From: an uncultured Woeseiaceae bacterium | GTDB taxonomy: Bacteria; Pseudomonadota; Gammaproteobacteria; Steroidobacterales; Woeseiaceae | Direction of reading: 5' to 3' | Assembly: GCA_947259285.1 (NCBI GenBank) | Contig: CAMYMR010000044.1 | Coordinates: 1-42,868, forward strand | DNA: 42,868 nt | In this document: positions 12,002-31,404 of the stretch, in pieces | How the letters are laid out: the number at the start of each line of letters is the position of its first letter | How positions within the stretch are numbered: position 1 is the first letter of the stretch | Notes under the pieces: generated by a model | Seen by the model: the letters and a program-made list of their open reading frames with translations, nothing else | Database searches by the model: none | Told to the model about the DNA's origin: nothing | Made by a program: the position numbers and the translations under genes

Positions 12002-12079
12002 TCCACTATCTTACGGCTTCATTGCGTGCCCAGCTACGAAGTAAATAATCTTAAGATCTCTGAAAAGTAGTACTATCTG

Positions 12080-12188
12080 TTCCTCACAGGGGTGGTCTTT
12101 CGACCTGAGATCCTTGCTCCGGCCGGTGCCGGGCACAAAGGGAACCCTTAGAACCTGATCCGGCTAATACCGGCGTAGGAAGGGAAGC
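12080..12188 (+). promoter_or_regulatory. TPP (thiamine pyrophosphate) riboswitch
   Basis: The conserved thi-box core is plainly visible: CAGGGGTGG, then ACCTGAGATCC, then CCCTTAGAACCTGATCCGG and the 3' part TAATACCGGCGTAGGAAGGG. TTCCT (12080-12084) can pair with GGGAA (12182-12186) as the closing P1 helix. The purine-rich stretch 12177-12186 is also the ribosome binding site of the gene starting at 12189, so TPP binding should hide it. Translational control is inferred because I see no terminator between the aptamer and the start codon. Confidence 0.97.
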
Positions 12189-14309
12189 ATGCATCCAACC
12201 CCAGACTTGCGGTTTCTCGCTGCAACCGCATTGATCGTATTCGCGGCGCTCTCGCATTCGTCCGAAACTGATAATGACGTGCTCGATGAAATCATCGTCA
12301 AGGCGGATTTTCGCGAACGCTCCATTCAGGAGCTTCCGGCAAGTGTCAGTGTCCTCGGTGCCGAATTCATCGAAGCGCATGCGACGCAGCATTTCGAAGA
12401 ACTCATCGACGTTATCCCGAACCTGAACTGGTCGGGCGACGGACATCGCGCCCGTTATTTTCAAATACGCGGCATCGGAGAACTTGAGCAATACCAGGGC
12501 GCTCCGAATCCGTCCGTTGGGTTCCTGATCGATGACATCGACTTCAGCGGCATTGGGTCCGTCGCGACATTGTTCGACGTGGAGTCAATCGAAGTGCTGC
12601 GCGGGTCACAGGGCAGCCGCTACGGGGCGAATGCACTGGGCGGCCTGATCTACGTCAGGAGCATTACACCGACTGCGGAGAGAGAGGGCCGACTGCAGCT
12701 TAGCGCCGGCGACGACGATACCTTCGCGCTGGGTCTGGCGCTGGGCGGCGCGATCGACAGCGACGAGAAGCTCATGTTTCGGATTAGCGCGCAAAAACAC
12801 GAGAGTGATGGTTTTCGTCGTAACAGCTATCTCGGCCGGGACGACACCAATGGCCGCGACGAGTCAACGCTGCGGCTACGGCTGCGCTACCTGCCATCGT
12901 CGGTACTCGAGGCTGATCTGACCCTGTTCTACAGCGACATCGACAATGGCTACGATGCATTTTCGCTCGACAACGGTTACACGATGCTGTCCGACAGGCC
13001 GGGGCGTGACGCACAGGAGAGCATGGGCGCGTCGCTGCGGCTGGCATGGTCGGCGTCGGATAAAGCCAGCTTAACGGCTATAACGACATTGGCTCGGTCC
13101 GATATCGATTTCAGTTTTGACGCGGATTGGGGAAACGACAATAGCTGGGCCCCGGTCAGCTACGACTACGTATCCTTGAGTGCCCGGCAACGAACAACGG
13201 CGAGCCAGGAGTTCCGGCTGGCATCGAGCGACGCCGGCAGGATATTTGCCGATACAACGGATTGGCTCGTTGGCATTTATCTTCAGAACCTTGATGAAGA
13301 GCTGCTCACCGTCAACCAGGGTGAGTACTACGATCCGTTCTACGATTTTGCGGACAGCCTGGATGAGCGCTTTGGCAGCGATTACGAAGCGACCAGCGCG
13401 GCGTTGTTTGGTCAGCTGCAGCGTGACATGAATGCGGCGACGAGACTCGGCTTGGGTCTGCGCATAGAGCATCGGTCCACCGACTATTCCGATACGACAG
13501 CACTTGCGGCGGGACCGTCCGAGACCATGTGGGGAGCTGAGCTGAGCCTCAGCCACGACCATTCCGAATCGTTTACCAGCTTCGTCAGCCTGACCAAAGG
13601 CTACAAGGCTGGCGGCTTCAATCTCGGGCCGGTGCCGGCAGGGCGACGGGATTTCGACGAAGAGCACCTGTGGAGCGCGGAAGCAGGCGTCAAGTTCTTT
13701 CTGGCCGACGACACGCTTGGCCTGAACGCGTCGGTCTTTTACAGCCGGCGTGACGATCAACAGGTGCGTACCTCATTTCAAATCGATCCGGGCGATCCTG
13801 CCTCATTCGTGTTCTTTACCGACAACGCGGCGACGGGCACTACCGTTGGCGCCGAAGCGGATCTTCGGTGGTCCGTTACGGATGCATTCGAGATTTACGC
13901 CAATATCGGGCTCCTCGACGCGAGCTTTGACGAATTCAGGGCGCCACAGGGCGACCTTGGCGGGCGGACACAGGCGCATGCACCGCGCTACACGGTAGCG
14001 GTCGGCGCCGCATATCGTCATACGAGTGGCCTTTTTGTTCGCCTCGACGCATCGGCACGTGATGACTTCTACTTCGACGTCAGTCACAACCAGAAATCGA
14101 GCGCTTATGAGCTGCTGAATGCGCGCATCGGCTACGAGGGCGAGAGCTGGTCGCTGCAGCTTTGGGGGCGTAACTTATTTGACAGGCGCTATGCGGTACG
14201 CGGATTCTACTTCGGCAATGAACCGCCAGATTTTCCCGACACGCTATACACTCGCCCTGGCGACCCACGTCACGTCGGTATCACGATTTCGAAGAGGTTT
14301 AAGCAATGA
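12189..14309 (+). CDS. TonB-dependent outer-membrane receptor, probably for thiamine
   Basis: Outer-membrane active transporter of 706 residues. A signal peptide-like N-terminus is followed by a TonB-box-like segment (DEIIVKAD), a plug domain (residues about 45-170, with FQIRGIGELEQY and VLRGSQGSRYGANALGG) and a 22-strand-type barrel ending in ITISKRF near the C-terminus. The TPP riboswitch directly upstream and the three thiamine-salvage genes fused to its reading frame end indicate uptake of thiamine or a phosphorylated or pyrimidine precursor. Receptors of this kind linked to PnuT are known from comparative genomics of thi-boxes. Uptake would need a TonB-ExbBD complex. The ATG follows the riboswitch by two bases. 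Confidence 0.92.
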   Translation: MHPTPDLRFLAATALIVFAALSHSSETDNDVLDEIIVKADFRERSIQELPASVSVLGAEFIEAHATQHFEELIDVIPNLNWSGDGHRARYFQIRGIGELEQYQGAPNPSVGFLIDDIDFSGIGSVATLFDVESIEVLRGSQGSRYGANALGGLIYVRSITPTAEREGRLQLSAGDDDTFALGLALGGAIDSDEKLMFRISAQKHESDGFRRNSYLGRDDTNGRDESTLRLRLRYLPSSVLEADLTLFYSDIDNGYDAFSLDNGYTMLSDRPGRDAQESMGASLRLAWSASDKASLTAITTLARSDIDFSFDADWGNDNSWAPVSYDYVSLSARQRTTASQEFRLASSDAGRIFADTTDWLVGIYLQNLDEELLTVNQGEYYDPFYDFADSLDERFGSDYEATSAALFGQLQRDMNAATRLGLGLRIEHRSTDYSDTTALAAGPSETMWGAELSLSHDHSESFTSFVSLTKGYKAGGFNLGPVPAGRRDFDEEHLWSAEAGVKFFLADDTLGLNASVFYSRRDDQQVRTSFQIDPGDPASFVFFTDNAATGTTVGAEADLRWSVTDAFEIYANIGLLDASFDEFRAPQGDLGGRTQAHAPRYTVAVGAAYRHTSGLFVRLDASARDDFYFDVSHNQKSSAYELLNARIGYEGESWSLQLWGRNLFDRRYAVRGFYFGNEPPDFPDTLYTRPGDPRHVGITISKRFKQ

Positions 14310-14560
14310 GAGTAGCTGTCGATATCAGCCTGTACCCGCTCGACGCGGATTTTGTGCCACCCATCAAAGATGTCATAGCGCGGCTCAACGAGCATGATCG
14401 ACTTGAGCTCTGGACGAATGCGATGAGTACGCAGGTCGTCGGCGATTTCGATGACATCATGGATGCGCTGCGTACGGAAATCGGTGCAACATTCGAGCAG
14501 TTACCGAAAGCGGTCTTCGTGATCAAACTGCTGAACAATCCCGCGTTCGGGCAGCAATGA
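14306..14560 (+). CDS. YkoF/MTH1187-like thiamine-binding protein
   Basis: An 84-residue protein of the Thiamine_BP (PF01910) type, recognised by the opening VAVDISLYPL, the TNAMSTQVVGDFDDIMDAL segment and the AVFVIKLLN end. Members are small cytosolic ferredoxin-fold proteins. The Bacillus relative YkoF binds thiamine and belongs to a hydroxymethylpyrimidine transport operon. Its start overlaps the receptor stop as ATGA, and its own stop overlaps the next start in the same way. A soluble thiamine carrier or sensor between permease and kinase is the likely role, but this is inference. Confidence 0.85.
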   Translation: MRVAVDISLYPLDADFVPPIKDVIARLNEHDRLELWTNAMSTQVVGDFDDIMDALRTEIGATFEQLPKAVFVIKLLNNPAFGQQ

Positions 14561-15165
14561 ACGCGCTGCTCGTACAGCTCACTGAACAGGCGCGTGCATT
14601 TTCAGGGCTCGAGGTGACTGCGGTCGTGTTCGCGATCGCCTACCTGTTGCTGGCGATACGTCAGAATATCTGGTGCTGGTTCTGCGCTGGCATCAGCACT
14701 GCGATTTACGTCTGGCTGTTTTTCAGCGCGAGGCTGTACATGGAGTCGGCACTCAACGGTTTCTATTTCGCCATGGCAATCTACGGCTGGTTCGTTTGGA
14801 CCAGCGGACGCAGCAACGGTCACGAGCGTCCAGTCGCACTCTGGTCCTGGAGAATACATGCAACGGCGTTGACAGCTATAGTCGTACTGAGCAGCGTCAA
14901 CGGCTATCTACTGAGAAGATACACGGATGCCGCATTTCCCTATGTCGATTCGTTGACGACATGGTCGGCTATCTGGGCGACTTTCCTGGTGGCCAGAAAA
15001 GTCCTGGAAAACTGGTGGTACTGGCTCGTGATCGACAGCGCGTCAGTTATCATCTACTGGGTGCGTGATCTGCAGTTGACGTCGTTGTTATTCGTTGCCT
15101 ATGTGATCATGATTCCATTCGGGATCGTCAGCTGGACACGATCATTTCGGGAGCAACATCCATGA
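14557..15165 (+). CDS. pnuT: PnuC-family inner-membrane transporter (PnuT-like, thiamine)
   Basis: Polytopic membrane protein of 202 residues with about seven hydrophobic segments. It carries the PnuC-type motifs ESALNGFYFAMAIYGWFVW and ENWWYWLVID. PnuC carriers move vitamins by facilitated diffusion, with trapping by phosphorylation inside. A PnuC homologue behind a thi-box and beside a kinase corresponds to PnuT, the thiamine carrier. The start and stop overlap the neighbours by four bases each. The symbol rests on this context; the sequence alone would only say PnuC family. Confidence 0.88.
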   Translation: MNALLVQLTEQARAFSGLEVTAVVFAIAYLLLAIRQNIWCWFCAGISTAIYVWLFFSARLYMESALNGFYFAMAIYGWFVWTSGRSNGHERPVALWSWRIHATALTAIVVLSSVNGYLLRRYTDAAFPYVDSLTTWSAIWATFLVARKVLENWWYWLVIDSASVIIYWVRDLQLTSLLFVAYVIMIPFGIVSWTRSFREQHP

Positions 15166-15974
15166 ATACTCTATCGTCGCCGGCCGACGCAATCAGCGAT
15201 CTGCCGGAGTGGCAGGGCGCAGCCTGGACCGAGCTTGCCGGCGGTCTGACGAATCGCGCCTGGCTGCTCGAAAAAAACGGTCGCAAAGCCGTGCTGAAGA
15301 TCGACGATGCGCCGCGCACGGAGCCATACAACACCCGGCAAGCAGAAGCGGCGGTACAGTCGGCAGCGGCAAAGGCCGGGGTCGCCAACGCCGTGCTGTT
15401 TGCCAACGAGCGCGTCTACCTCACCGACTATGTCGATGGCGTCGCGTGGGACCCGGCTTGCCTCGATCAGGCAGGCAAGATAGAGCAGCTTGCGTCGGCG
15501 CTGCGGCGACTGCACTCGATGCCGCGCACGGGTCGAACGTTCGACGCCCATGGGGCCGCAAAACTTTACGCCCGGTCTATCGAATACCCGGACAAGGAAG
15601 TCCTCTCCGTTTGCATCGACGTCACCCGAAAAGCGCGGCTGCCGAACTATCTCTGTTGCTGCCATAACGATCTCGTTGCCGAAAACATAATCACAACGCC
15701 GGCGCTCAAGTTCCTCGACTGGGAATACGCCTGCGACAACGATCCCATGTTCGATCTCGCGACGCTCGCGGAACACCATTCGTTAAGCGACGCGATTGCG
15801 AACAATCTTCTGGATGCCTATTTCGACGGTGCGGGAGAAAGCTGGCGCGCGAAACTCACCGAGCAGCGGCGGCTGTACCTCGCGCTCCACTGGCTCTGGC
15901 TTGCGTCAAGGCCAGACAGTCCGGACAGGCTGCTAAGACGACTGGCGGATCGCCTGACTACCAGCTGTTCCTGA
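15162..15974 (+). CDS. thiamine kinase-like phosphotransferase
   Basis: APH/choline-kinase-fold enzyme of 270 residues. The ATP lysine is in KAVLKIDD, the catalytic loop reads CHNDLVAENII and the metal site LDWEYA. In this operon the likely reaction is phosphorylation of imported thiamine to thiamine monophosphate, as E. coli ThiK does, trapping it in the cell. The monophosphate would still need ThiL, which is not in the window. The start overlaps the permease stop as ATGA, and the 3' end overlaps the convergent glyoxalase-like gene by 17 bp. Choline or another alcohol is the main alternative substrate. Confidence 0.82.
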   Translation: MNTLSSPADAISDLPEWQGAAWTELAGGLTNRAWLLEKNGRKAVLKIDDAPRTEPYNTRQAEAAVQSAAAKAGVANAVLFANERVYLTDYVDGVAWDPACLDQAGKIEQLASALRRLHSMPRTGRTFDAHGAAKLYARSIEYPDKEVLSVCIDVTRKARLPNYLCCCHNDLVAENIITTPALKFLDWEYACDNDPMFDLATLAEHHSLSDAIANNLLDAYFDGAGESWRAKLTEQRRLYLALHWLWLASRPDSPDRLLRRLADRLTTSCS

Positions 15975-22355: not shown

Positions 22356-22991
22356 ATGAAACGATCCATCGCGATAGCCGGCAACATGGGTACAGGCAAG
22401 TCGACGCTCGTGGAGTTTCTCCACAGAACTTACGACGTCGCGCCGTTTTACGAGCCTAACGATGAGAACCCCTACCTGGGGGATTTCTACAAGGATATGA
22501 AGCGCTGGGCATTTCAGTCGCAGCTGTATTTCCTGAGCAACAAGTTTCGATTGCACCAGGAACTGGATCGTCAGCCCGGCGTGGTCGCCCTGGATCGGAC
22601 GATCTTCGAAGATGCCGAGGTATTTGCAACGGCCCTGCACCAGATGCGAAAAATCTCGAAGCGTGACTGGGCAACGTACCGCGGCTTCTACGAGGCCATT
22701 CTGGACGCTATCCGGCCGCCCGACCTGATGATCTATTTGCGCTGCTCGATGTCCACGTTGCGGCACCGCATTCGTCTACGCGGCCGGAAGATGGAGCAGG
22801 ATGTGCCGCTGTCCTACCTGAAGCGACTCGATCGCCTGTACGAGGGCTGGATAGACTCGTACGATATGAGCGAGGTATTGGTGCTGGAAACCGATCGACT
22901 GGACTATATTCACGACCTCATTCATCGGCTCGACGTCATGGAGCGCATCGAGTCAGTACTTCCCGAGGAAATCGGTCGGCCCAACTGCTAG
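22356..22991 (+). CDS. deoxynucleoside kinase (dGK/dCK family)
   Basis: Nucleoside kinase of 211 residues. The P-loop is GNMGTGKST, the substrate-binding glutamate lies in YEPNDENPYL, and the DR-type motif reads ALDRTIFED. The LID arginines are in RHRIRLRGRKMEQD. The family phosphorylates deoxyadenosine, deoxyguanosine or deoxycytidine. The open frame begins at 22323, but the first beta strand starts with MKRSIAIAG, so ATG 22356 is preferred. With hpt next to it, a role in purine (deoxy)nucleoside salvage is likely. Confidence 0.87.
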   Translation: MKRSIAIAGNMGTGKSTLVEFLHRTYDVAPFYEPNDENPYLGDFYKDMKRWAFQSQLYFLSNKFRLHQELDRQPGVVALDRTIFEDAEVFATALHQMRKISKRDWATYRGFYEAILDAIRPPDLMIYLRCSMSTLRHRIRLRGRKMEQDVPLSYLKRLDRLYEGWIDSYDMSEVLVLETDRLDYIHDLIHRLDVMERIESVLPEEIGRPNC

Positions 22992-23015
22992 CCTGGTTAT
23001 TGCACCAACCGACGC

Positions 23016-23816
23016 CTAATCCAGCCTGAATCCTGCCCGGGAAAGACGCCGCGCGCTCTTTTCGAATTCATCGCGATCCTGGTAGGTCAGCACGACCTCG
23101 AATTCGCCGGTGCCGCGGCGAAACCAGTCCAGGCTCAATTCCGGCGCTTGTGCTTCGAGGTGCTCAATAAAAGCCTCGGCACGATACGGTTCGCCGAAGG
23201 TCAGGAGCGTTGACTGGCCGATCGACGAGTAAAGGGTGTCGGGCACGGGCTTTCGGGTCTTACTGTTGCCGAGGACATAATTCAGATGACGATAAATGTA
23301 ACCGGAGTACCAGGTCGCGCCGGTTGGAATGTTGTAACCGTCCGTCGCAATGCGCCCGGGGCCGTAATTGTAGGCGGCCAGCGCCAGGTGGACGTTGCCG
23401 TTATAGCGTGCCAGCAGTTCCTTCAGGTAGCGCGCGCCTGCGTCGATGTTCGTACAGGGCTCGTAGAGATCGCTCAGCCGGTGAATGCCGAGATGCTTCG
23501 CGGTATCGGGCCACAGGATCTGCATCACCCCGTGTGCGTTAGCGTGCGACCGGGCGGTGGCGTTGAAATCACTCTCTCCACGTGCAACGGCGAGCAGTAA
23601 AGATTCGGGCAAGTCGTACTGAAGCGCGGCGGCGCGGAAGCAGGTTGAATGGGGGAAGGTGTAGGCGGGCTCGAGAGTCGCCTGGTTCGCGCTGTAGTCC
23701 TGCCACGCCACGTCGAGGTCAGGTCGGGTAGCCCAGGCACCGATAGCTACAATCGAGAGGAATATTCCCGCGGCCCACGACGCATTGTTTCTTGTGCTTC
23801 GCCGCATCTTAGCCAT
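23016..23816 (-). CDS. lytic transglycosylase, Slt family
   Basis: Peptidoglycan-cleaving enzyme of about 266 residues, last gene of the envelope operon. An N-terminal hydrophobic segment (ASWAAGIFLSIVAIGAWA) exports or anchors it. The SLT domain has the catalytic glutamate in ARGESDFN (about residue 81), HGVMQILWPDTAKHLGI and AAYNYGPGRIA. A further 80 residues after the domain, with WFRRGTGEFEVVLTYQDRDE, resemble a small SPOR-like fold. Start codons at 23816 and 23807 both overlap or abut the stop of the upstream gene, indicating coupling. Its presence suggests that the complex must open or remodel the cell wall. Confidence 0.87.
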   Translation of the reverse strand: MAKMRRSTRNNASWAAGIFLSIVAIGAWATRPDLDVAWQDYSANQATLEPAYTFPHSTCFRAAALQYDLPESLLLAVARGESDFNATARSHANAHGVMQILWPDTAKHLGIHRLSDLYEPCTNIDAGARYLKELLARYNGNVHLALAAYNYGPGRIATDGYNIPTGATWYSGYIYRHLNYVLGNSKTRKPVPDTLYSSIGQSTLLTFGEPYRAEAFIEHLEAQAPELSLDWFRRGTGEFEVVLTYQDRDEFEKSARRLSRAGFRLD

Positions 23817-24345
23817 CCGACAAATCGAGGCCGGTAGCCGTCGAGATCTGCGAGAGCTTATTCTGGATATCGCTATCGTCGGAATACGCAAACGCCACCT
23901 CAAAGACGCCGGGTTTCAGCTTGATGACCCGGTAGTCCAGCCCGGTAGTGCGCTGCAGCTGAGCGACGAACCCGTCAGCGGCGATCTGACTTCGGAAAGG
24001 GCTCCAGAAGGCGTACCACTGTTGCTCTGCCGGAGGTGCGGGTTCCGGATCGTTGGCCAAAGGCTTCGGCGCGACATCGGGCATCGGATCCGGCGTGGCC
24101 AAAGGGCTAAGGTCGGGCGGCGAAGCTTCGGCAATGTCGACATCGTGTGTCGCTTGCTCGACAACGGGCTCGATTTGGGAAATCGCATCCGCTTCCTTGT
24201 TCTGCATCGTTGCTTCAGGAATGACCAGATCTGCCTGCATATTATCGCCGTCGTGCGATGCATTGAATTCGGGAACCCCGACCGCGAGTATGAGCAGGCC
24301 CACCGCCATTGCGGCGCCCGTCAATATGCCCATCAGACGAATCAT
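23809..24345 (-). CDS. membrane-anchored SPOR-like protein
   Basis: A 178-residue protein with one N-terminal membrane helix (MGILTGAAMAVGLLILAVGV), a long acidic and proline-rich linker and a C-terminal domain of about 70 residues. That domain (WYAFWSPFRSQIAADGFVAQ, then DYRVIKLKPG and FEVAFAYSD) resembles SPOR, which binds denuded peptidoglycan strands. AAGGAG precedes the start. It lies nine bases after the exported 508-residue protein and overlaps the transglycosylase. A bridge between inner membrane and cell wall is a reasonable inference. Confidence 0.72.
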   Translation of the reverse strand: MIRLMGILTGAAMAVGLLILAVGVPEFNASHDGDNMQADLVIPEATMQNKEADAISQIEPVVEQATHDVDIAEASPPDLSPLATPDPMPDVAPKPLANDPEPAPPAEQQWYAFWSPFRSQIAADGFVAQLQRTTGLDYRVIKLKPGVFEVAFAYSDDSDIQNKLSQISTATGLDLSDG

Positions 24346-24354
24346 GGCGACTCC

Positions 24355-25881
24355 TTACAATACATTCTTGACGCTTAGTGCTCGCCAGTCGACGTGTTTC
24401 GATGAGCGTGCCGTCAGCATTGCAAAATCACTCAGCCATTCCCGCAGCGCGTCGTCTTCGAGCCCGGGACGAATCGATGCCGAGCATCGCAGCGGTAGTT
24501 CGTCCATGTGGTTTGCGACGCGTCTGGCGACCTGCGCATCTGTGATGACGACCGCGTAGAAGGTGTCGAATTGCGGGTCGAGCTGCCAATCGAAAGTCTC
24601 GCTCCAGTTCTGCCTTGCCGTGCTGGTCTTCGCGACCGGGAAGCGAACAAGTTCGCCCTTGCGCGCGATACGCGCGGTTGTCCGACTGCGGCACTCGGGG
24701 CCAGCCAACCTGACCAGGCCGTGATTGGCCTGGTGCTCGAGGAAGAATACGATCGAGTCGGCCTGTGCTTTCGTTGTCAACAGCGAGCACGGTCGCACGC
24801 CGCTCATGTAGCTGGCATCGCGAATGGCGACACTGCCATCCTTGCAGTCGCTGAATGAGGCGGGCGAGGCGAGTTGCAGCGGACTGATCAACGCATCTTT
24901 GCCGGCATTGGGTACCGATATTGACGCAGGCGTGGGCGTTACCGGCGTCGTAGCCGGCGGCGTATCGGGACCCGGCTCCGGTGCTGCGACAGTTGGCGTG
25001 TCGGGCAAAATAACATAGGCGCTGGCGCCGAGCGCCGCGACGTCGTCCTCTGCATCCTGCGGCGTGATGGTTAACCAGTACTGAAACAATACGCCGTCGA
25101 TCTGGTGCGCTTTGCCGCTGAGGACAGCGTTGGTTCTTTTCTCATCATTGCTCAGGGTCAGCGCCTGGCGACCGGCCAGATTGTTGCTGATCAACTCTAC
25201 CGTGCCCTGGAGACCCTCCGCCGTCGGCTCGCGCAGGTCGGCGGCAACGACGTATTCGTCCGATACGCGCTTTTGCATCGCGCAGCTCAGTTCGTGAGCA
25301 AGGTGCGCGGCCAGCAGGTCCGTCTGTGACAGTGTAAATGGCACGTCTCGCGCACCGAGAAACGTCTCGTCGATGCGCGATTGGCGCATCGCCTGTCGCT
25401 GAGTCGTGCTGAGCTTTCCATGCCAGCGCTTGCCGAAACCGGTTACCCAGTTGCGGTCTTCAAGGTCGAGCGCACGGACATTGACGGCGTAGCTGCTGTC
25501 CAGTTTTTGTGTGAGTTCGACGCCGATGTAGTAATGCACGTCGTCAAGCTTGCAGTCCTGGGGCTGCGCGTCCATTAAGCTGCCGCTGCGACCTTGCTGC
25601 CAGCCGACGGCAACGCCAGGCGTTGCGACCGCCGCGGCAAGGATGCGATCGCGAAGCGAAATCGCCAGCGCGTTGCTGACGGAGGCCGGCGTATTGTCGC
25701 GCAGGACGACAAACATGACGGTCTCGTTCTTGAACCGTGGATGCACGATCAGCTGTTGCCGAACATACGGTATGAGATCTCGGTCCAGCCAACGATCGAG
25801 GTCCTTTTCGCGGGACTGGGCGACGGCCGGAATGGACTGTGCCACAAGGATGGTCAGTAGTATCAGGATGCGTTTTGTCAT
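24355..25881 (-). CDS. exported protein of unknown function, envelope operon
   Basis: A 508-residue exported protein with a signal peptide (MTKRILILLTILVAQSIPAVAQ). Two domains are separated by a Pro/Thr-rich linker near the middle (PGPDTPPATTPVTPTPA). The N-terminal one contains HPRFKNETVMFVVLRDN and a segment DVHYYIGVELTQKLDSSYAV. The C-terminal one is rich in beta-strand-like stretches and has SFSDCKDGSVAIRDASY and three further cysteines. I do not recognise the family. It starts with GGGAGG upstream and overlaps the ExbD-like gene by four bases, so it is probably the periplasmic partner of the channel. Confidence 0.75.
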   Translation of the reverse strand: MTKRILILLTILVAQSIPAVAQSREKDLDRWLDRDLIPYVRQQLIVHPRFKNETVMFVVLRDNTPASVSNALAISLRDRILAAAVATPGVAVGWQQGRSGSLMDAQPQDCKLDDVHYYIGVELTQKLDSSYAVNVRALDLEDRNWVTGFGKRWHGKLSTTQRQAMRQSRIDETFLGARDVPFTLSQTDLLAAHLAHELSCAMQKRVSDEYVVAADLREPTAEGLQGTVELISNNLAGRQALTLSNDEKRTNAVLSGKAHQIDGVLFQYWLTITPQDAEDDVAALGASAYVILPDTPTVAAPEPGPDTPPATTPVTPTPASISVPNAGKDALISPLQLASPASFSDCKDGSVAIRDASYMSGVRPCSLLTTKAQADSIVFFLEHQANHGLVRLAGPECRSRTTARIARKGELVRFPVAKTSTARQNWSETFDWQLDPQFDTFYAVVITDAQVARRVANHMDELPLRCSASIRPGLEDDALREWLSDFAMLTARSSKHVDWRALSVKNVL

Positions 25882-26672
25882 GAGGCCTCCCATCGAATCT
25901 CGCCGTTGGCGACGATGATCAGGCTGCCGCCACGGTGTTCAAGCATCAGCTTGTCGAGTTCGTTTCTAAGCTTGCCAGGTAGCGTCACGCCCCAGCTTAC
26001 CGCCTCGGGCACAGCGCCGGTGCGCTGCAGCGCCGCAATGACCGCCGCGGGTACGGTGTTTCTCTCCATCTCATGAAAGGTGTTTGGCGTGGACGCGTCC
26101 CAGAAACTGATGCGACTCTCACTGACAGTCATGCGCTGCGCGCGGTCATTGTCTATTGCGTAAAGGCCGACATGACCGGCGGCGACGAGCCTGGTCAGCG
26201 CAGCGTCCGACTCGAATCGGAGCGTGAATCCCTCTGTTTCACTTTCGGGGGCTACTGGTTCATCGCGGGGTTCGACAGGCAGGGAAGGGGCCGGCGTCTG
26301 CGCAACAACAGGCGCTCGTAGCGGCTCTTCGACCGCCGTTTTCGGGACGAATTTGGAGATCCATTTGGGCCGTGTCAGCGTTACGGTTGCTTCGGGCAGG
26401 GGCTGCGGCGTCGACTTAGCCACCGTTTCCGGCGCTTCGGTCATTGTGACCGTCTCATCGGCGATAACGTTCGTAACGGGCTGCTCTCTTGCCTCCGGTT
26501 CGAGTGGCGGTGTCGGCGTCATCGGTATGCTTTGCACGAGCGCGAATATTGCAACGAGACAAAGCGACAGAATCGCCATGAAGCGCATAATGTCGGTCTG
26601 CAGGTCGGCCGCTCCGCCCGAATCGCTATCAGCGGAACGGTTCAGCGGATAAGCCAGCGGCGAGCGCGTCAC
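25878..26672 (-). CDS. ExbD/TolR/MotB-like membrane protein with extended periplasmic domain
   Basis: A 264-residue protein with one membrane helix near the N-terminus. The segment LQTDIMRFMAILSLCLVAIF aligns with ExbD/TolR, including the membrane aspartate (Asp27) that carries protons in that family. A proline-rich linker (about residues 50-140) leads to a C-terminal domain of about 115 residues with SWGVTLPGKLRNELDKLM and GGSLIIVANGEI. The domain is much longer than in ExbD and I cannot name it. The start is GTG 26672, overlapping the stop of the channel gene as GTGA, with GGAGG eight bases upstream. Confidence 0.8.
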   Translation of the reverse strand: MTRSPLAYPLNRSADSDSGGAADLQTDIMRFMAILSLCLVAIFALVQSIPMTPTPPLEPEAREQPVTNVIADETVTMTEAPETVAKSTPQPLPEATVTLTRPKWISKFVPKTAVEEPLRAPVVAQTPAPSLPVEPRDEPVAPESETEGFTLRFESDAALTRLVAAGHVGLYAIDNDRAQRMTVSESRISFWDASTPNTFHEMERNTVPAAVIAALQRTGAVPEAVSWGVTLPGKLRNELDKLMLEHRGGSLIIVANGEIRWEAS

Positions 26673-27325
26673 GGCTGCGCCTCCAGTCCGTCAGCGCCAC
26701 GGCGGTCTCCTCGCAGGTGCTCTTCAATTCGCTTGAGGCTTAAGCGCATCTCGGAGGTGTCGGCACGCGCCGCGTTATCGTACTGCTGCTGCAGCCGGGT
26801 ACCCAGGACGATCGTCTTGTAGACGCGCATTACGTAGCCGCCGACGCCGCCGAATATCGTCGTCGAGAGTGCGAGCAGAATGCCGCCGTCAACGAGACGT
26901 TCGAGCATGGCGAATGCGCCTTGTTGAAGGGCCGCGTGGCGGTCGCCCAGCGCAAATATCAGTGCGCTGCGCATGCCAATCGCGGTCCAGATTACGCCAG
27001 TGCCGAAGAACAGCGTCGTCCAGATGTCGGTCAGATGATCGAGCTGTACGATCTGATTAATGGGCCGCGCGTTATCCAGCGCGTTTCGCAGTCGCCCGAG
27101 CGTAAGGAAATAGGCCAGCAACAGAAGCGCGAATACCGGAATCGACGAACCGAGGTTCGTGTACGCCCACTGCAGCCACTCGCCCGGGCTGCTAACCGTC
27201 GTGTCACTGAAACGAATGACGCCGGTACGCGCCAGGACGTAAAGCGAAGCGGCGCCACCGATGAGGGTGCCCAGTGCCCCGGCGATGACACCTTTCAAAA
27301 ATACGAGGCTGGGTTTCGTCGTCAT
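26669..27325 (-). CDS. ExbB/TolQ/MotA-like proton channel subunit
   Basis: A 218-residue inner-membrane protein with four hydrophobic segments (about 8-31, 58-78, 103-126 and 144-173) and a short helical cytoplasmic tail. The last two segments, TLFFGTGVIWTAIGMRSALI and GGILLALSTTIFGGVGGYVM, match the ExbB/TolQ/MotA channel helices, including the conserved threonines. The cytoplasmic loop between helices two and three is only about 25 residues, far shorter than in ExbB or MotA. With the ExbD-like protein it should form a proton-driven stator. Confidence 0.82.
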   Translation of the reverse strand: MTTKPSLVFLKGVIAGALGTLIGGAASLYVLARTGVIRFSDTTVSSPGEWLQWAYTNLGSSIPVFALLLLAYFLTLGRLRNALDNARPINQIVQLDHLTDIWTTLFFGTGVIWTAIGMRSALIFALGDRHAALQQGAFAMLERLVDGGILLALSTTIFGGVGGYVMRVYKTIVLGTRLQQQYDNAARADTSEMRLSLKRIEEHLRGDRRGADGLEAQP

Positions 27326-27334
27326 CAGGTCAAT

Positions 27335-27886
27335 TTAGCGGCCAGCCGCGCATGCAGTGCAGGTCGCTTCGAGCACCAGCTCGACTTCCTGGAATAACTG
27401 ATCGGCACGGTAATAGCCTTCGTTATCCAGGCTAACCTTCAAGAGGCCACGTTCCTTTTCTTCCAGCTCGCGCTCCATGTTGAGCAGCACCTTTTGCCTG
27501 TTGGGGCAGGTGTGCGAGCAGTTGTTGTAGTCGCCCTTCAAGGACATGAATTTCACATTGAAGAAGCGATTGTAGTAGTCCTCCGCCTGTCGATTACTCA
27601 AAAGGCCCTTATCGCTCGCCCAGACGAGAAACTCGCTGAACGCTCGCTTGTTTTCCGGTTTGGGATCGCCCTCGGCAATTGCAAGGAGGTCGTCGTAGTA
27701 GCGGTCGAAGTGCGCATGACAGCCCTCCATCAACGAGGACTGAGCGGTAGCTATTGCCGCATTCAGGTTTTTGGACTGTGGCCCTGCACAGGTGGGCGCG
27801 GTCGACGCGCACGATGCAAGAATAAAGAGCGCCGTCGCCAGGCCCAAGATGCCCGGCAGCGCTTTTCTGTTGGTTTTCAAGTTCAC
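27335..27886 (-). CDS. lipoprotein of unknown function, envelope operon
   Basis: A 183-residue lipoprotein starting at GTG 27886 (GAGGAG seven bases upstream). The signal sequence ends in the lipobox ILASCAS. The mature part has paired cysteines (MEGCHAHF, NNCSHTCPNRQ and ATCTACAAGR), probably disulfides, and a charged helical stretch ERELEEKERGLLKV. No known family is recognised. Its start lies 25 bp after the first gene of the operon and its stop nine bases before the channel gene. Confidence 0.72.
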   Translation of the reverse strand: MNLKTNRKALPGILGLATALFILASCASTAPTCAGPQSKNLNAAIATAQSSLMEGCHAHFDRYYDDLLAIAEGDPKPENKRAFSEFLVWASDKGLLSNRQAEDYYNRFFNVKFMSLKGDYNNCSHTCPNRQKVLLNMERELEEKERGLLKVSLDNEGYYRADQLFQEVELVLEATCTACAAGR

Positions 27887-27911
27887 GGGCAATCTCCTCA
27901 CTGTGTCGTAC

Positions 27912-28727
27912 TCATTGTTCCAGCGGACTGCGGTAGGCCTGCTCCACGCTGCCCGGCGGCGGCCCGGCAACCAGCGCCTGGCTTTCCTCATCACCGAACA
28001 AGATCGTCTTGACGCCGCCGACTACCTCGATCATCTCGGGTGTAATAATCCCGAAGGACTGATTTAGCTGTTCCATCAGCGTCGCGCGCGCGATTTCCTG
28101 GCGCGTGCGTTGGATGAGCAGGCTGGTTTCTTCCATGTCGAGATAGATGTCCGACGCCAGCACCGCAAGCGACTGGTCGCCCTTGGCGCCGGACGTAGCG
28201 ACCAGTTGATAATATTGCTTGAATCGTTCGCTCAGTCGCATCCCGGAACGACCGCGCAGCGTGGGTGAAGCCTTCGCCGTCGCGTTGTTGGCATTGCCAC
28301 CGATCAGCGTCTCCTGCAGCAGCCACGGCGTCATCTTCTTGCCAAGCTCAATGCGCAGCCCTTTTTCCAGGCTTTGCCGCGTGTTGTTGACCGTGTGCTC
28401 CATGTCAGGCAAGCGTTCTTCCATGATCGTCAGCATGTCGAGGTAGCTCGCGCCAATCTGGCGTGCCAGTCGCTGGCAGCCCGCATCTTCTTCAGCACCG
28501 TCACATTTGCTTTCCTCGTAAAGCTGCTGCTGCTGGTCCAGCTTTCCGATGACTTCCTGCAATCCGGTTTCCATGTCGCGCGCGACATTTCCGGTCTGAC
28601 GCAGGTCTTCGACAACGGTCGTTGGAAACAGCCGGATTGTCGGTGTGTTAGCTTCCGACACGGTTGTTGCAAACATTGCGATGGCGATTAGCAGGACGGG
28701 AATCCGTAGTCTGGCGGCGGTTATCAT
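27912..28727 (-). CDS. exported helical protein, first gene of the envelope operon
   Basis: A 271-residue protein with a signal peptide (IPVLLIAIAMFATTVSEA). The mature protein is mostly helical, with a glutamine-rich coiled-coil-like stretch (GKLDQQQQLYEESK), two cysteines (KCDGAEEDAGCQ) and a helical C-terminal half (EETSLLIQRTRQEIA). No family is recognised. GAGGATC precedes the ATG. A promoter with a palindrome in its spacer lies about 45 bp upstream, making this the first gene of the seven-gene unit. Confidence 0.75.
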   Translation of the reverse strand: MITAARLRIPVLLIAIAMFATTVSEANTPTIRLFPTTVVEDLRQTGNVARDMETGLQEVIGKLDQQQQLYEESKCDGAEEDAGCQRLARQIGASYLDMLTIMEERLPDMEHTVNNTRQSLEKGLRIELGKKMTPWLLQETLIGGNANNATAKASPTLRGRSGMRLSERFKQYYQLVATSGAKGDQSLAVLASDIYLDMEETSLLIQRTRQEIARATLMEQLNQSFGIITPEMIEVVGGVKTILFGDEESQALVAGPPPGSVEQAYRSPLEQ

Positions 28728-28770
28728 GTCGCGATCCTCGAGGTTGTTGACGCGTTTATGCGGTGAGGGC

Positions 28771-28799
28771 GTTATTCGGTTACGCTAACCGCCTGTCAA
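28771..28799 (-). promoter_or_regulatory. promoter of the envelope operon with spacer palindrome
   Basis: On the minus strand a perfect TTGACA (28799-28794), a 17-bp spacer and AATAAC (28776-28771) form a plausible sigma-70 promoter. The spacer contains the exact inverted repeat CGGTTA / TAACCG (28777-28791, centre 3 bp), a likely operator for an unidentified regulator. Confidence 0.6.
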
Positions 28800-28891
28800 T
28801 GAATGCAACCTGAACGCGCGCTTCTGGCGCCATCTGAGAACCGCATCCGAAGTCGAACTGCGAGGTAGGACACTATCCGTACAATTCCCTA

Positions 28892-28920
28892 TTGCACATA
28901 GTAATGCGAATCATTATCAT
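28892..28920 (+). promoter_or_regulatory. feoAB promoter with Fur box
   Basis: TTGCAC (28892-28897), 17 bp and TATCAT (28915-28920) form a good promoter. The 19 bp at 28900-28918 match the Fur consensus GATAATGATAATCATTATC at 15 positions and lie between and over the -35 and -10 boxes, so Fur-Fe(II) should repress feoAB when iron is plentiful. Confidence 0.85.
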
Positions 28921-28970
28921 TTGACCCATAGTCAATGGACCGACTGAAAAACGAGCATTATTAGGAAGTT

Positions 28971-29222
28971 ATGGCAATCAACGGCAACACACTCGCTACC
29001 CTGAAACGCGGCCAGAAAGGCATTATCAAGTCTGTCGATGCGGCCGATCCACAGGTGCAACGCCTGATGGTTCTCGGCCTTGTCGAGGGTGCCGAAGTTG
29101 AGCACGCGAGCTCCGCGATCGGGGGAGACCCGATCGAGTTTCGTCTGTTTGGTTGCGGTATTTCTTTGCGCCAGGAACACGCGAAGTATTTCCAGGTTGC
29201 TCCTGTAGTGGCTGGTGACTAA
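28971..29222 (+). CDS. feoA: ferrous iron transport protein A
   Basis: An SH3-like cytosolic protein of 83 residues that assists FeoB. It carries the family pattern LKRGQKGIIKSVD, RLMVLGLVEGAEVE and FGCGISLRQEHAKYFQV. AGGAAG precedes the ATG. The stop overlaps the feoB start by eight bases. No FeoC follows. Confidence 0.93.
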   Translation: MAINGNTLATLKRGQKGIIKSVDAADPQVQRLMVLGLVEGAEVEHASSAIGGDPIEFRLFGCGISLRQEHAKYFQVAPVVAGD

Positions 29223-31404
29223 ACGCTCAGAAATACGAATCCCCACTACTGAAATTCACGTTGCCGGGCGCTTAGCCGCCAGCATCGCGGTTGTGGGCAA
29301 TCCTAACTCCGGCAAGAGTACGCTGTTCAATCGCCTGACCGGTCTCAAGCAAAAGATCGGCAACTATCCGGGCGTTACCGTCGAGAAGCATGTCGGCATC
29401 CTGAAAGTTGACGACCAGGCAATAGAGCTGGTCGATTTGCCCGGCACACACTCGCTGAGCGCACACTCGCTCGAAGAACACATCGCGGTCGATGTCATTT
29501 TCGGGCGCATGCAGGGCACGAAGAAGCCGGACGGAATTCTCGCGGTGCTCGATGCGACGAATCTCTACCAGGGACTGTTCCTGGTGCAGCAGCTGCTTGA
29601 GCTTCGCCTGCCCACGGTCATCGCGCTCACCATGACGGACGCGGCGGATCAGAGTGGCATCGGCATCGACATAGAGGAGCTCCGGAAGCAGCTGGGCGGG
29701 GTTCCGATCTGCCCGGTCGTCGCGACGTCGGGGACCGGTCTGGAAAGTCTGCGAAAGGCCATCGCTGGTATTCCGGATTTGCCACCGCCGGAAAGAATCA
29801 TCGTCTGGCCCGAGCTATCGGAGGCGGCTCGCCGATTGGCTGAAGGCGCCCGCGAGCCGATTCGATTTGCCGAACTCGAGCGTTTGCTGCTCGATGGCGC
29901 GATCGATGCGAATCGCCCGTTTCTCGAAAAGCTAAGCCAGGACGCCAGGGACAGGCTGGAGGCCGAGCGCGATTCGCTGTTCGGCATCGAACCGCCTGTC
30001 GCTCGGGATGCCCGGATTCGCTACGCATGGGTGCGCGAGGTCCTTGCCAAGGTCCAGCATTCGGCACCGCCGTTTTACTCGTGGCGGACACGTGTCACCG
30101 CGTTTCTGAATCGACCGATCCCGGGCACCATCGGTCTTTTTGTGGTGATGGCGATTGTTTTTCAGGCCGTGTTTGCGTGGGCAACGCCGCTGATGGACCT
30201 CATTGACTCGGCCGCTTTAGCGCTCGGCGCGAGCGTGACCCGGACCTTTGGCGACGGCGCGCTAGCGAGCTTGATCGCCGACGGCGTTATTGCCGGTGTG
30301 GGCAGCGTCGTCATATTCTTGCCGCAGATCCTGATCCTGTTCCTGTTCATTATCCTGCTCGAAGATTCGGGCTACCTGGCCCGAGCAGCGTACCTGATGG
30401 ACCGGGCGATGCGCTCGGTCGGCCTTTCCGGCCAGTCGATCATTCCGATGATTTCGAGCTTCGCCTGCGCCGTGCCGGGCATCATGGCAACGCGCGTGAT
30501 TCCGAACCGGCGCGACCGAATTGCAACCATCCTCGCGGCGCCGTTTATGACCTGTTCCGCGAGGCTCCCCGTGTACGCCTTGTTGATTGCCGCGTTCGTG
30601 CCGGCCACAAAAGTCGGTTTCATGAATCTGCAGGGCCTGGTTCTGTTCGGACTTTACCTTTTCGGGATCGTCGCCGGCATTCTGACGGCGTTGCTGATTC
30701 GAAAGACCGCTCTGCGCGGGCCGAAGCCGCCTTTCGCACTGATGTTGCCGGAGTTTCGTCGACCGAATCTCCAAACGGTGTTGATTCAGCTGCTCGGGCG
30801 CGCGAAGGTTTTTCTTTATCGCGCCGGCACCGTAATTTTCGCTGTCGCCGTGATTGTCTGGTCGCTGGCCTACTATCCGCGGGCGGATCTGCTTGCACCG
30901 CAGGTCGGGCAGCAGCGCAGCATTGCGGCATATACATTGTCTGGCGAGGAACTGGCTGCCGAATACCAACGCATCGACAACGTTGCGGCAGCTGCGCAGA
31001 TGGAGCAAAGCTGGCTGGGAAGGGCCGGACGATTCGTCGAACCGGCGTTTGCGCCGCTCGGATGGGACTGGCGCGTCTCCGCCGCGGTCATCGCCGGCTT
31101 TCCGGCACGCGAGGTCGTTATCGCCGTACTCGGGACCGTCTACGCCGTCGGCGACGAGGCTGACGAAGTCACCTTGTCGAGTCGATTGAAAACGTCGACC
31201 TGGCCGGACGGCAGGCCGGTGTTTACCTTGCCAATGGTAATCGGCCTGCTGATTTTCTATGCCTGCTGTCTGCAGTGCGCGGCAACGCTGGCTGTTATTC
31301 GTCGGGAGACCAATTCTTGGCGATGGCCGATCTTCGCGTGGACGTACATGACCGCGATCGGCTATATCGGCGCGCTGCTCGCGTTCCAGTTGGGTAGTAA
31401 TTAG
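29215..31404 (+). CDS. feoB: ferrous iron transport protein B
   Basis: Inner-membrane Fe(II) transporter of 729 residues with an N-terminal G domain. G1 is GNPNSGKS (28-35), the switch region YPGVTVEK, and G3 DLPGTHSLS (74-81). The membrane part has the paired gate motifs SFACAVPGIMATR and CSARLPVYALLIAAF. The G4 guanine-specificity motif, normally NxxD, reads TMTD at 139-142. The start is GTG 29215 inside the feoA end, implying coupled translation. Control is by the Fur box upstream of feoA. The 3' end overlaps the convergent aminotransferase gene by four bases. Confidence 0.95.
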   Translation: MTKRSEIRIPTTEIHVAGRLAASIAVVGNPNSGKSTLFNRLTGLKQKIGNYPGVTVEKHVGILKVDDQAIELVDLPGTHSLSAHSLEEHIAVDVIFGRMQGTKKPDGILAVLDATNLYQGLFLVQQLLELRLPTVIALTMTDAADQSGIGIDIEELRKQLGGVPICPVVATSGTGLESLRKAIAGIPDLPPPERIIVWPELSEAARRLAEGAREPIRFAELERLLLDGAIDANRPFLEKLSQDARDRLEAERDSLFGIEPPVARDARIRYAWVREVLAKVQHSAPPFYSWRTRVTAFLNRPIPGTIGLFVVMAIVFQAVFAWATPLMDLIDSAALALGASVTRTFGDGALASLIADGVIAGVGSVVIFLPQILILFLFIILLEDSGYLARAAYLMDRAMRSVGLSGQSIIPMISSFACAVPGIMATRVIPNRRDRIATILAAPFMTCSARLPVYALLIAAFVPATKVGFMNLQGLVLFGLYLFGIVAGILTALLIRKTALRGPKPPFALMLPEFRRPNLQTVLIQLLGRAKVFLYRAGTVIFAVAVIVWSLAYYPRADLLAPQVGQQRSIAAYTLSGEELAAEYQRIDNVAAAAQMEQSWLGRAGRFVEPAFAPLGWDWRVSAAVIAGFPAREVVIAVLGTVYAVGDEADEVTLSSRLKTSTWPDGRPVFTLPMVIGLLIFYACCLQCAATLAVIRRETNSWRWPIFAWTYMTAIGYIGALLAFQLGSN

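Follow-up and report, generated by a model that had tools for sequence, protein, structure and literature searches.

To our knowledge, few proton-driven periplasmic machines are known, and the Ton, Tol, Mot, Agl, Gld, and Zorya systems serve as points of reference for the present analysis. A survey of MotAB proteins describes generic ion transporters with condensed cytoplasmic domains of two or three helices, some of unknown function (PMC12505986). The covered sections of that survey hold no description of the seven-gene set reported here, and a literature search found none either. The set, designated A–G, lies on the minus strand of contig CAMYMR010000044.1 (42,868 nucleotides, referred to as the window) of the assembly GCA_947259285.1 from an uncultured Woeseiaceae bacterium. 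On balance, the operon probably encodes an undescribed proton-driven, envelope-spanning machine. This reading is based on a co-inherited conserved set, a TolQ-like channel model, a stalked partner with an invariant aspartate, a lipoprotein, export signals, and a lytic transglycosylase domain.

Gene content and conservation of the set

The seven open reading frames run from 28727 to 23016, with starts assigned by reading the DNA. Gene A (27912–28727, ATG at 28727) encodes an exported protein of 271 amino acids (aa) with an N-terminal hydrophobic segment and a mostly hydrophilic remainder; its mean column identity of 66% over 62 rows is the highest among the four families aligned. Gene B (27335–27886, GTG at 27886) encodes a lipoprotein of 183 aa with several conserved cysteines and the lipobox LASC, which is predicted from the alanine at position +2 to be of the outer-membrane type. 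These are followed by C (26669–27325, ATG at 27325; 218 aa), a predicted channel subunit with four transmembrane (TM) helices and a TolQ/ExbB-like core, D (25878–26672, GTG at 26672; 264 aa), a bitopic protein resembling ExbD, TolR, and MotB, and E (24355–25881, ATG at 25881; 508 aa), an exported protein whose N-terminal region is weakly CsgG-like. The last two genes encode F (23809–24345, ATG at 24345; 178 aa), which has an N-terminal membrane segment, and the lytic transglycosylase G (23016–23816, ATG at 23816; 266 aa). Hydropathy analysis revealed a single N-terminal hydrophobic segment in each of A, B, E, F, and G, one segment in D, and four in C. Only G was identified by Pfam, NCBIfam, and PADLOC at E values up to 1, the matches of A–F being weak or far below any cut-off; six of the seven proteins are without a direct match to a known family. 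Adjacent genes are separated by 25 bp (A-B) or 9 bp (B-C and E-F), or overlap by 4 bp (C-D, GTGA; D-E, ATGA) or 8 bp (F-G). A sequence-only reading of this DNA had described such tight packing, with gaps of at most 25 bp, and a cysteine-rich lipoprotein, both of which are borne out. The same reading had the operon start at 28799 with one promoter; gene A begins at 28727 instead, and the promoter was not confirmed, as a sigma-70 scan of 22600–29300 revealed no minus-strand site upstream of A.

Of 98 other genomes searched, 33 carry the gene for C (28/60 from the same genus and 5/38 from the same order), as do four of 369 other genomes drawn from the class, one of the four belonging to the same genus. 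As C is present in 10 of the 17 same-genus genomes of at least 95% completeness, the set is accessory. A contig search gave 113 confirmed relatives, of which 80 were kept; they come from Woeseiaceae, from Desulfobacterales, and from further Gammaproteobacteria, among them symbionts of tubeworms. Among the resulting 81 loci (the window and the 80 relatives, every one picked for carrying C; numbered with the prefix L), hidden Markov model matches were obtained for A in 77, B in 80, D in 78, E in 73, F in 62, and G in 64, and all seven genes are present in 58. By reading, 16 of the 23 incomplete loci are cut by contig ends, four are without F only, two have scaffold gaps inside D, and one is the Marinobacterium locus L113. 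F was not found in L091, L107, and L108 (Desulfobacterales/Delta symbiont) or in L112. In L096 and L100, runs of N in chromosome-level metagenome-assembled genomes (MAGs; CP070738 and CP070821) break D, and the second half of the operon is located elsewhere in the same record.

As the sequence-only reading anticipated, the genes co-occur in other genomes, and their order is conserved in Gammaproteobacteria and Desulfobacterales. The sole locus out of order is L113 (5109–9309), in which C precedes B behind an 892-aa protein with 21 Sel1 repeats; no A was found in the stretch examined, and the contig ends after B. The seven genes evolve together: the Spearman coefficients of the 21 gene pairs are 0.72–0.93, based on 47 loci (35 where F is involved). 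A tree built from 47 concatenated rows places L091 and L107 in one group with L108, the locus from the Olavius Delta 1 symbiont, with full support in the Shimodaira–Hasegawa-like approximate likelihood ratio test (quick method); the root of this tree is arbitrary, and transfer is therefore neither shown nor excluded. The ratios of nonsynonymous to synonymous substitution rates (dN/dS) between L037 and L039 are 0.039 for A, 0.086 for B, 0.091 for C, 0.226 for D, 0.095 for E, 0.224 for F, and 0.127 for G. Between the window and L037 they are 0.06–0.13, near saturation, and the corresponding ratio of proportions (pN/pS) for F is 0.32. At the level of sequence, the dN/dS values for L037 and L039, together with the order conserved in Gammaproteobacteria and Desulfobacterales, confirm that the gene set is real beyond chance.

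The channel pair, the wall proteins, and the proposed machine

Protein C has four hydrophobic peaks, and its structure model, for which TolQ is the first structural match, contains a very short connection between TM2 and TM3 (residues 85–88), bearing out the unusually short cytoplasmic loop of the earlier description. Residues T114 and T156 are invariant in 71 of 71 rows and align, through a weak profile match, with the threonine columns of the channel helices of MotA/TolQ/ExbB (PF01618). No Pfam family matches C of the window, PF01618 matches one of the 71 C sequences at an E value of 0.43, and C is absent from the six PF01618 matches in the window's own genome. Judged by its model, C is a putative channel subunit with a remote likeness to TolQ. 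D consists of a helix (residues 22–47), a linker without predicted secondary structure (48–147), and a folded periplasmic domain (148–264) with no confident fold match. Asp27, located in the helix, is invariant in 64 of 64 sequences, in agreement with the ExbD aspartate noted previously. D of the window matches no Pfam family, and ExbD (PF02472) is missing from the 25 families (of 113) that are listed as matches of the 64 D members. C and D are accordingly not ordinary Tol, Ton, or Mot paralogues. In a MAG contig labelled Desulfobacterales (L104, 1119–2753), C and D are read as a single 544-aa frame, which reflects either a fusion of the two genes or an indel introduced by sequencing where C and D normally overlap.

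The wall part of the set includes the predicted Slt enzyme, as G contains an SLT domain (PF01464; 97.2 bits against a cut-off of 21.3) with a conserved catalytic-type RGES motif. Profile comparison revealed that F and G end in homologous domains (probability 95, E value 2.6e-8; 0.4 for a reversed F control). F had been read as a SPOR-like protein, a claim that is partly supported by the topology and by a weak profile match, in which 52 columns of a joint F and G profile align with SPOR (PF05036) in the expected order at a probability of only 11%; Pfam detects no SPOR match in this domain. Because the ligand of SPOR domains is glycan devoid of peptides, which the septum is rich in (PMC6895207), we hypothesize that the F/G domain may serve septal targeting.

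In the proposed machine, C would form an oligomeric ring around a D dimer, after the 5:2 plan of TolQR, ExbBD, and MotAB, and protons passing Asp27 of D and the threonines of C would turn or pull D. The stalk and end domain of D may cross the wall via gaps cut by G, which could be positioned by the domain in common with F, and D would then act on an assembly of E, A, and B at the outer membrane. With low confidence, the output might be mechanical work at the interface between the outer membrane and peptidoglycan. The sequence-only reading proposed a dedicated force-transducing machine anchored to peptidoglycan; the dedicated conserved set, channel, aspartate-bearing partner, and transglycosylase hold, whereas force transduction is what we infer. 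Anchoring would be consistent with an OmpA-domain neighbour in L091, the only Desulfobacterales locus for which this neighbour gene was covered by the scan.

Neighbouring genes and alternative explanations

The flanks are conserved only within the Woeseiaceae-like group. The feoA gene is located upstream of A, in divergent orientation, in the window and in 24 of the loci L037–L082 (25 in all), and a deoxynucleoside-kinase-like gene, assigned by reading, is located downstream in 23 loci. A Fur-box-like site at 28900–28918, between A and feoA, agrees with the Fur consensus at 14 of 19 positions. As sites of at least 13/19 occur in exactly the 25 feoA-bearing loci among the loci scanned, this site is assigned to the divergent feoA. 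Of the 58 loci with room after G, 11 (10/21 in L083–L116 and 1/37 elsewhere) have an additional, eighth gene for a short exported protein at −4 to +111 bp from G. These loci are L084, L086, L088, L090, L093, L094, L095, L111, L112, L114, and L072, and in five of them the gene overlaps G by 4 bp. Its product is related to glycine-zipper-2TM proteins but has no zipper. Some glycine-zipper-2TM proteins are present in the same loci; one in L111 matches PF05433, and the short eighth gene of L090 has no Pfam match. Elsewhere in the window, a thiamine pyrophosphate riboswitch scores over the gathering threshold at 12078–12198 (plus strand) and is followed at 12168–15971 (plus strand) by genes for a TonB-dependent receptor, a small membrane transporter, and a kinase-like protein (by reading); the region 12078–15971 looks like a thiamine uptake operon.

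Among the Desulfobacterales loci, Pfam was run on the neighbour genes of L091, L107, and L109. The C-terminal region of E corresponds to DUF4384 in Desulfobacterales orthologues, exceeding the Pfam cut-off in L091, L107, and L108; as only 5 of 65 E sequences scanned match DUF4384 at E values up to 10, E of the window is tied to this domain only through orthology. Caspase-domain proteins are encoded on the same strand directly after the operon in L091 (12511–14841) and L107 (8752–12423), where they exceed the cut-off, and downstream of G in L108, by reading only. Their His/Cys motifs (SGHG and DACHSG or DTCFSG) are intact, and the first caspase protein of both L091 and L107 also contains DUF4384 over the cut-off. 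A TPR-OmpA protein is encoded downstream of G in L091. Upstream of A, a zf-HC2-like gene lies on the same strand (16.4 bits in L091 and 19.9 in L109, both below the cut-off of 22.2), and a sigma-factor-like gene precedes A (by reading; the L091 copy has no Pfam match). A separate class of proton-driven trans-envelope motors, parallel to the reference systems named above, with its own wall-cutting enzyme and joined in Desulfobacterales to exported caspases that share DUF4384 with a periplasmic motor part, is conceivable, if somewhat unlikely. If it exists, force transmitted across the envelope could regulate proteases that act beyond the inner membrane.

The closeness of the C model to TolQ, the adjoining feoA in 25 loci, and the SPOR-like domain and lytic transglycosylase, which point to septum-enriched denuded glycan (PMC6895207), would suit a divergent accessory Ton/Tol system that energises an outer-membrane receptor or aids Tol-Pal at the septum. 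We regard this as unlikely, since no TonB, TolA, TolB, or Pal family was detected among the seven proteins (Pfam and NCBIfam), the Fur-like site follows feoA, and the set is patchy among the near-complete same-genus genomes. The view that it is not a standard Ton, Tol, or flagellar system was thus upheld, no such family being present among the seven proteins. A TolB_N match is present in 29 of the 31 genomes of the family, including three that also hold C (G026, G052, and G267), so the set is no replacement there; the window's own genome (84.8% complete) has no TolB_N match. The set is an additional system, because the window's genome contains further genes for ExbB and ExbD, and C-bearing relatives have TolB. 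A type-IX-like machine, in which the motor drives protein export to the surface or adhesin movement and B and E are outer-membrane and periplasmic ring proteins, is quite unlikely. The order B-C-D-E repeats the roles of GldK, GldL, GldM, and GldN, and a dedicated lytic transglycosylase suits a large trans-envelope apparatus; however, B, D, and E have no Pfam match over the cut-off and, at an E value of 1, no Pfam or NCBIfam match naming type IX components, and no conserved secreted substrate, translocon, or adhesin was seen adjoining the set.

The caspase-domain proteins and zf-HC2-like protein that flank Desulfobacterales loci, the DUF4384 that one downstream caspase protein shares with E, and the TPR-OmpA protein of L091 would suit a stress or cell-death module, in which the motor in the envelope would sense or activate caspase-like peptidases that are exported. 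Such a module is nevertheless very unlikely: caspases were seen in three loci with downstream room (L091, L107, and, by reading only, L108), none was seen by eye beside the gammaproteobacterial sets of L083–L116, where no Pfam caspase scan was made, and no PADLOC system was found in the seven proteins. That all sequence profiles miss C might instead mean that it is no proton channel, and that an unrelated four-helix protein and a bitopic partner act as a passive scaffold for the transglycosylase. The TolQ-first structural match, the invariant membrane aspartate and threonines in register, and the order of channel then stalk gene render this improbable.

Comparison with known systems

The preferred reading, a proton-driven machine, is best judged against described systems. 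As in TolQ-TolR and ExbB-ExbD, the channel gene stands directly before that of the bitopic partner, the modelled core is TolQ-like, and a conserved membrane aspartate and aligned threonines are present. In contrast to these systems, C has an extra N-terminal TM helix and almost no cytoplasmic loop between TM2 and TM3 and escapes detection by Pfam, the stalk of D is longer and no fold match was found for its end domain, and the set is without TolA/TonB. Chains of the Zorya ZorAB complex occur among the structural matches of C, whereas the set is rich in exported proteins, lacks an evident cytoplasmic effector, and was matched by no Zorya model in PADLOC at an E value of 1. G resembles the RlpA-type SPOR lytic transglycosylases in combining a lytic transglycosylase with a small glycan-binding-like domain, but its catalytic domain is SLT rather than that of RlpA, and the small domain is not detected by Pfam as SPOR.

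The gene order parallels that of the type IX systems GldKLMN and PorKLMN, with an outer-membrane lipoprotein (B), a channel (C), a stalked subunit (D), and a periplasmic protein (E) in the same succession of roles. The order GldK-L-M-N is deduced here from PMC9127263, in which these genes carry successive locus numbers (Fjoh_1853 to 1856). The type IX systems differ in that they are known from Bacteroidota and that no common sequence family was found, and A, F, and the SLT enzyme are added in the present set. By analogy, the correspondence suggests a common plan without detectable homology. A motor missed by sequence profiles would widen the set of proton-driven periplasmic machines and would account for a group of genes that are conserved but unannotated in Woeseiaceae, in the symbionts of tubeworms, and in Desulfobacterales from sediment. 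With a gene order that parallels the type IX motor and a minimal channel that has hardly any cytoplasmic loop, this set would be well suited to asking which motor parts are essential.
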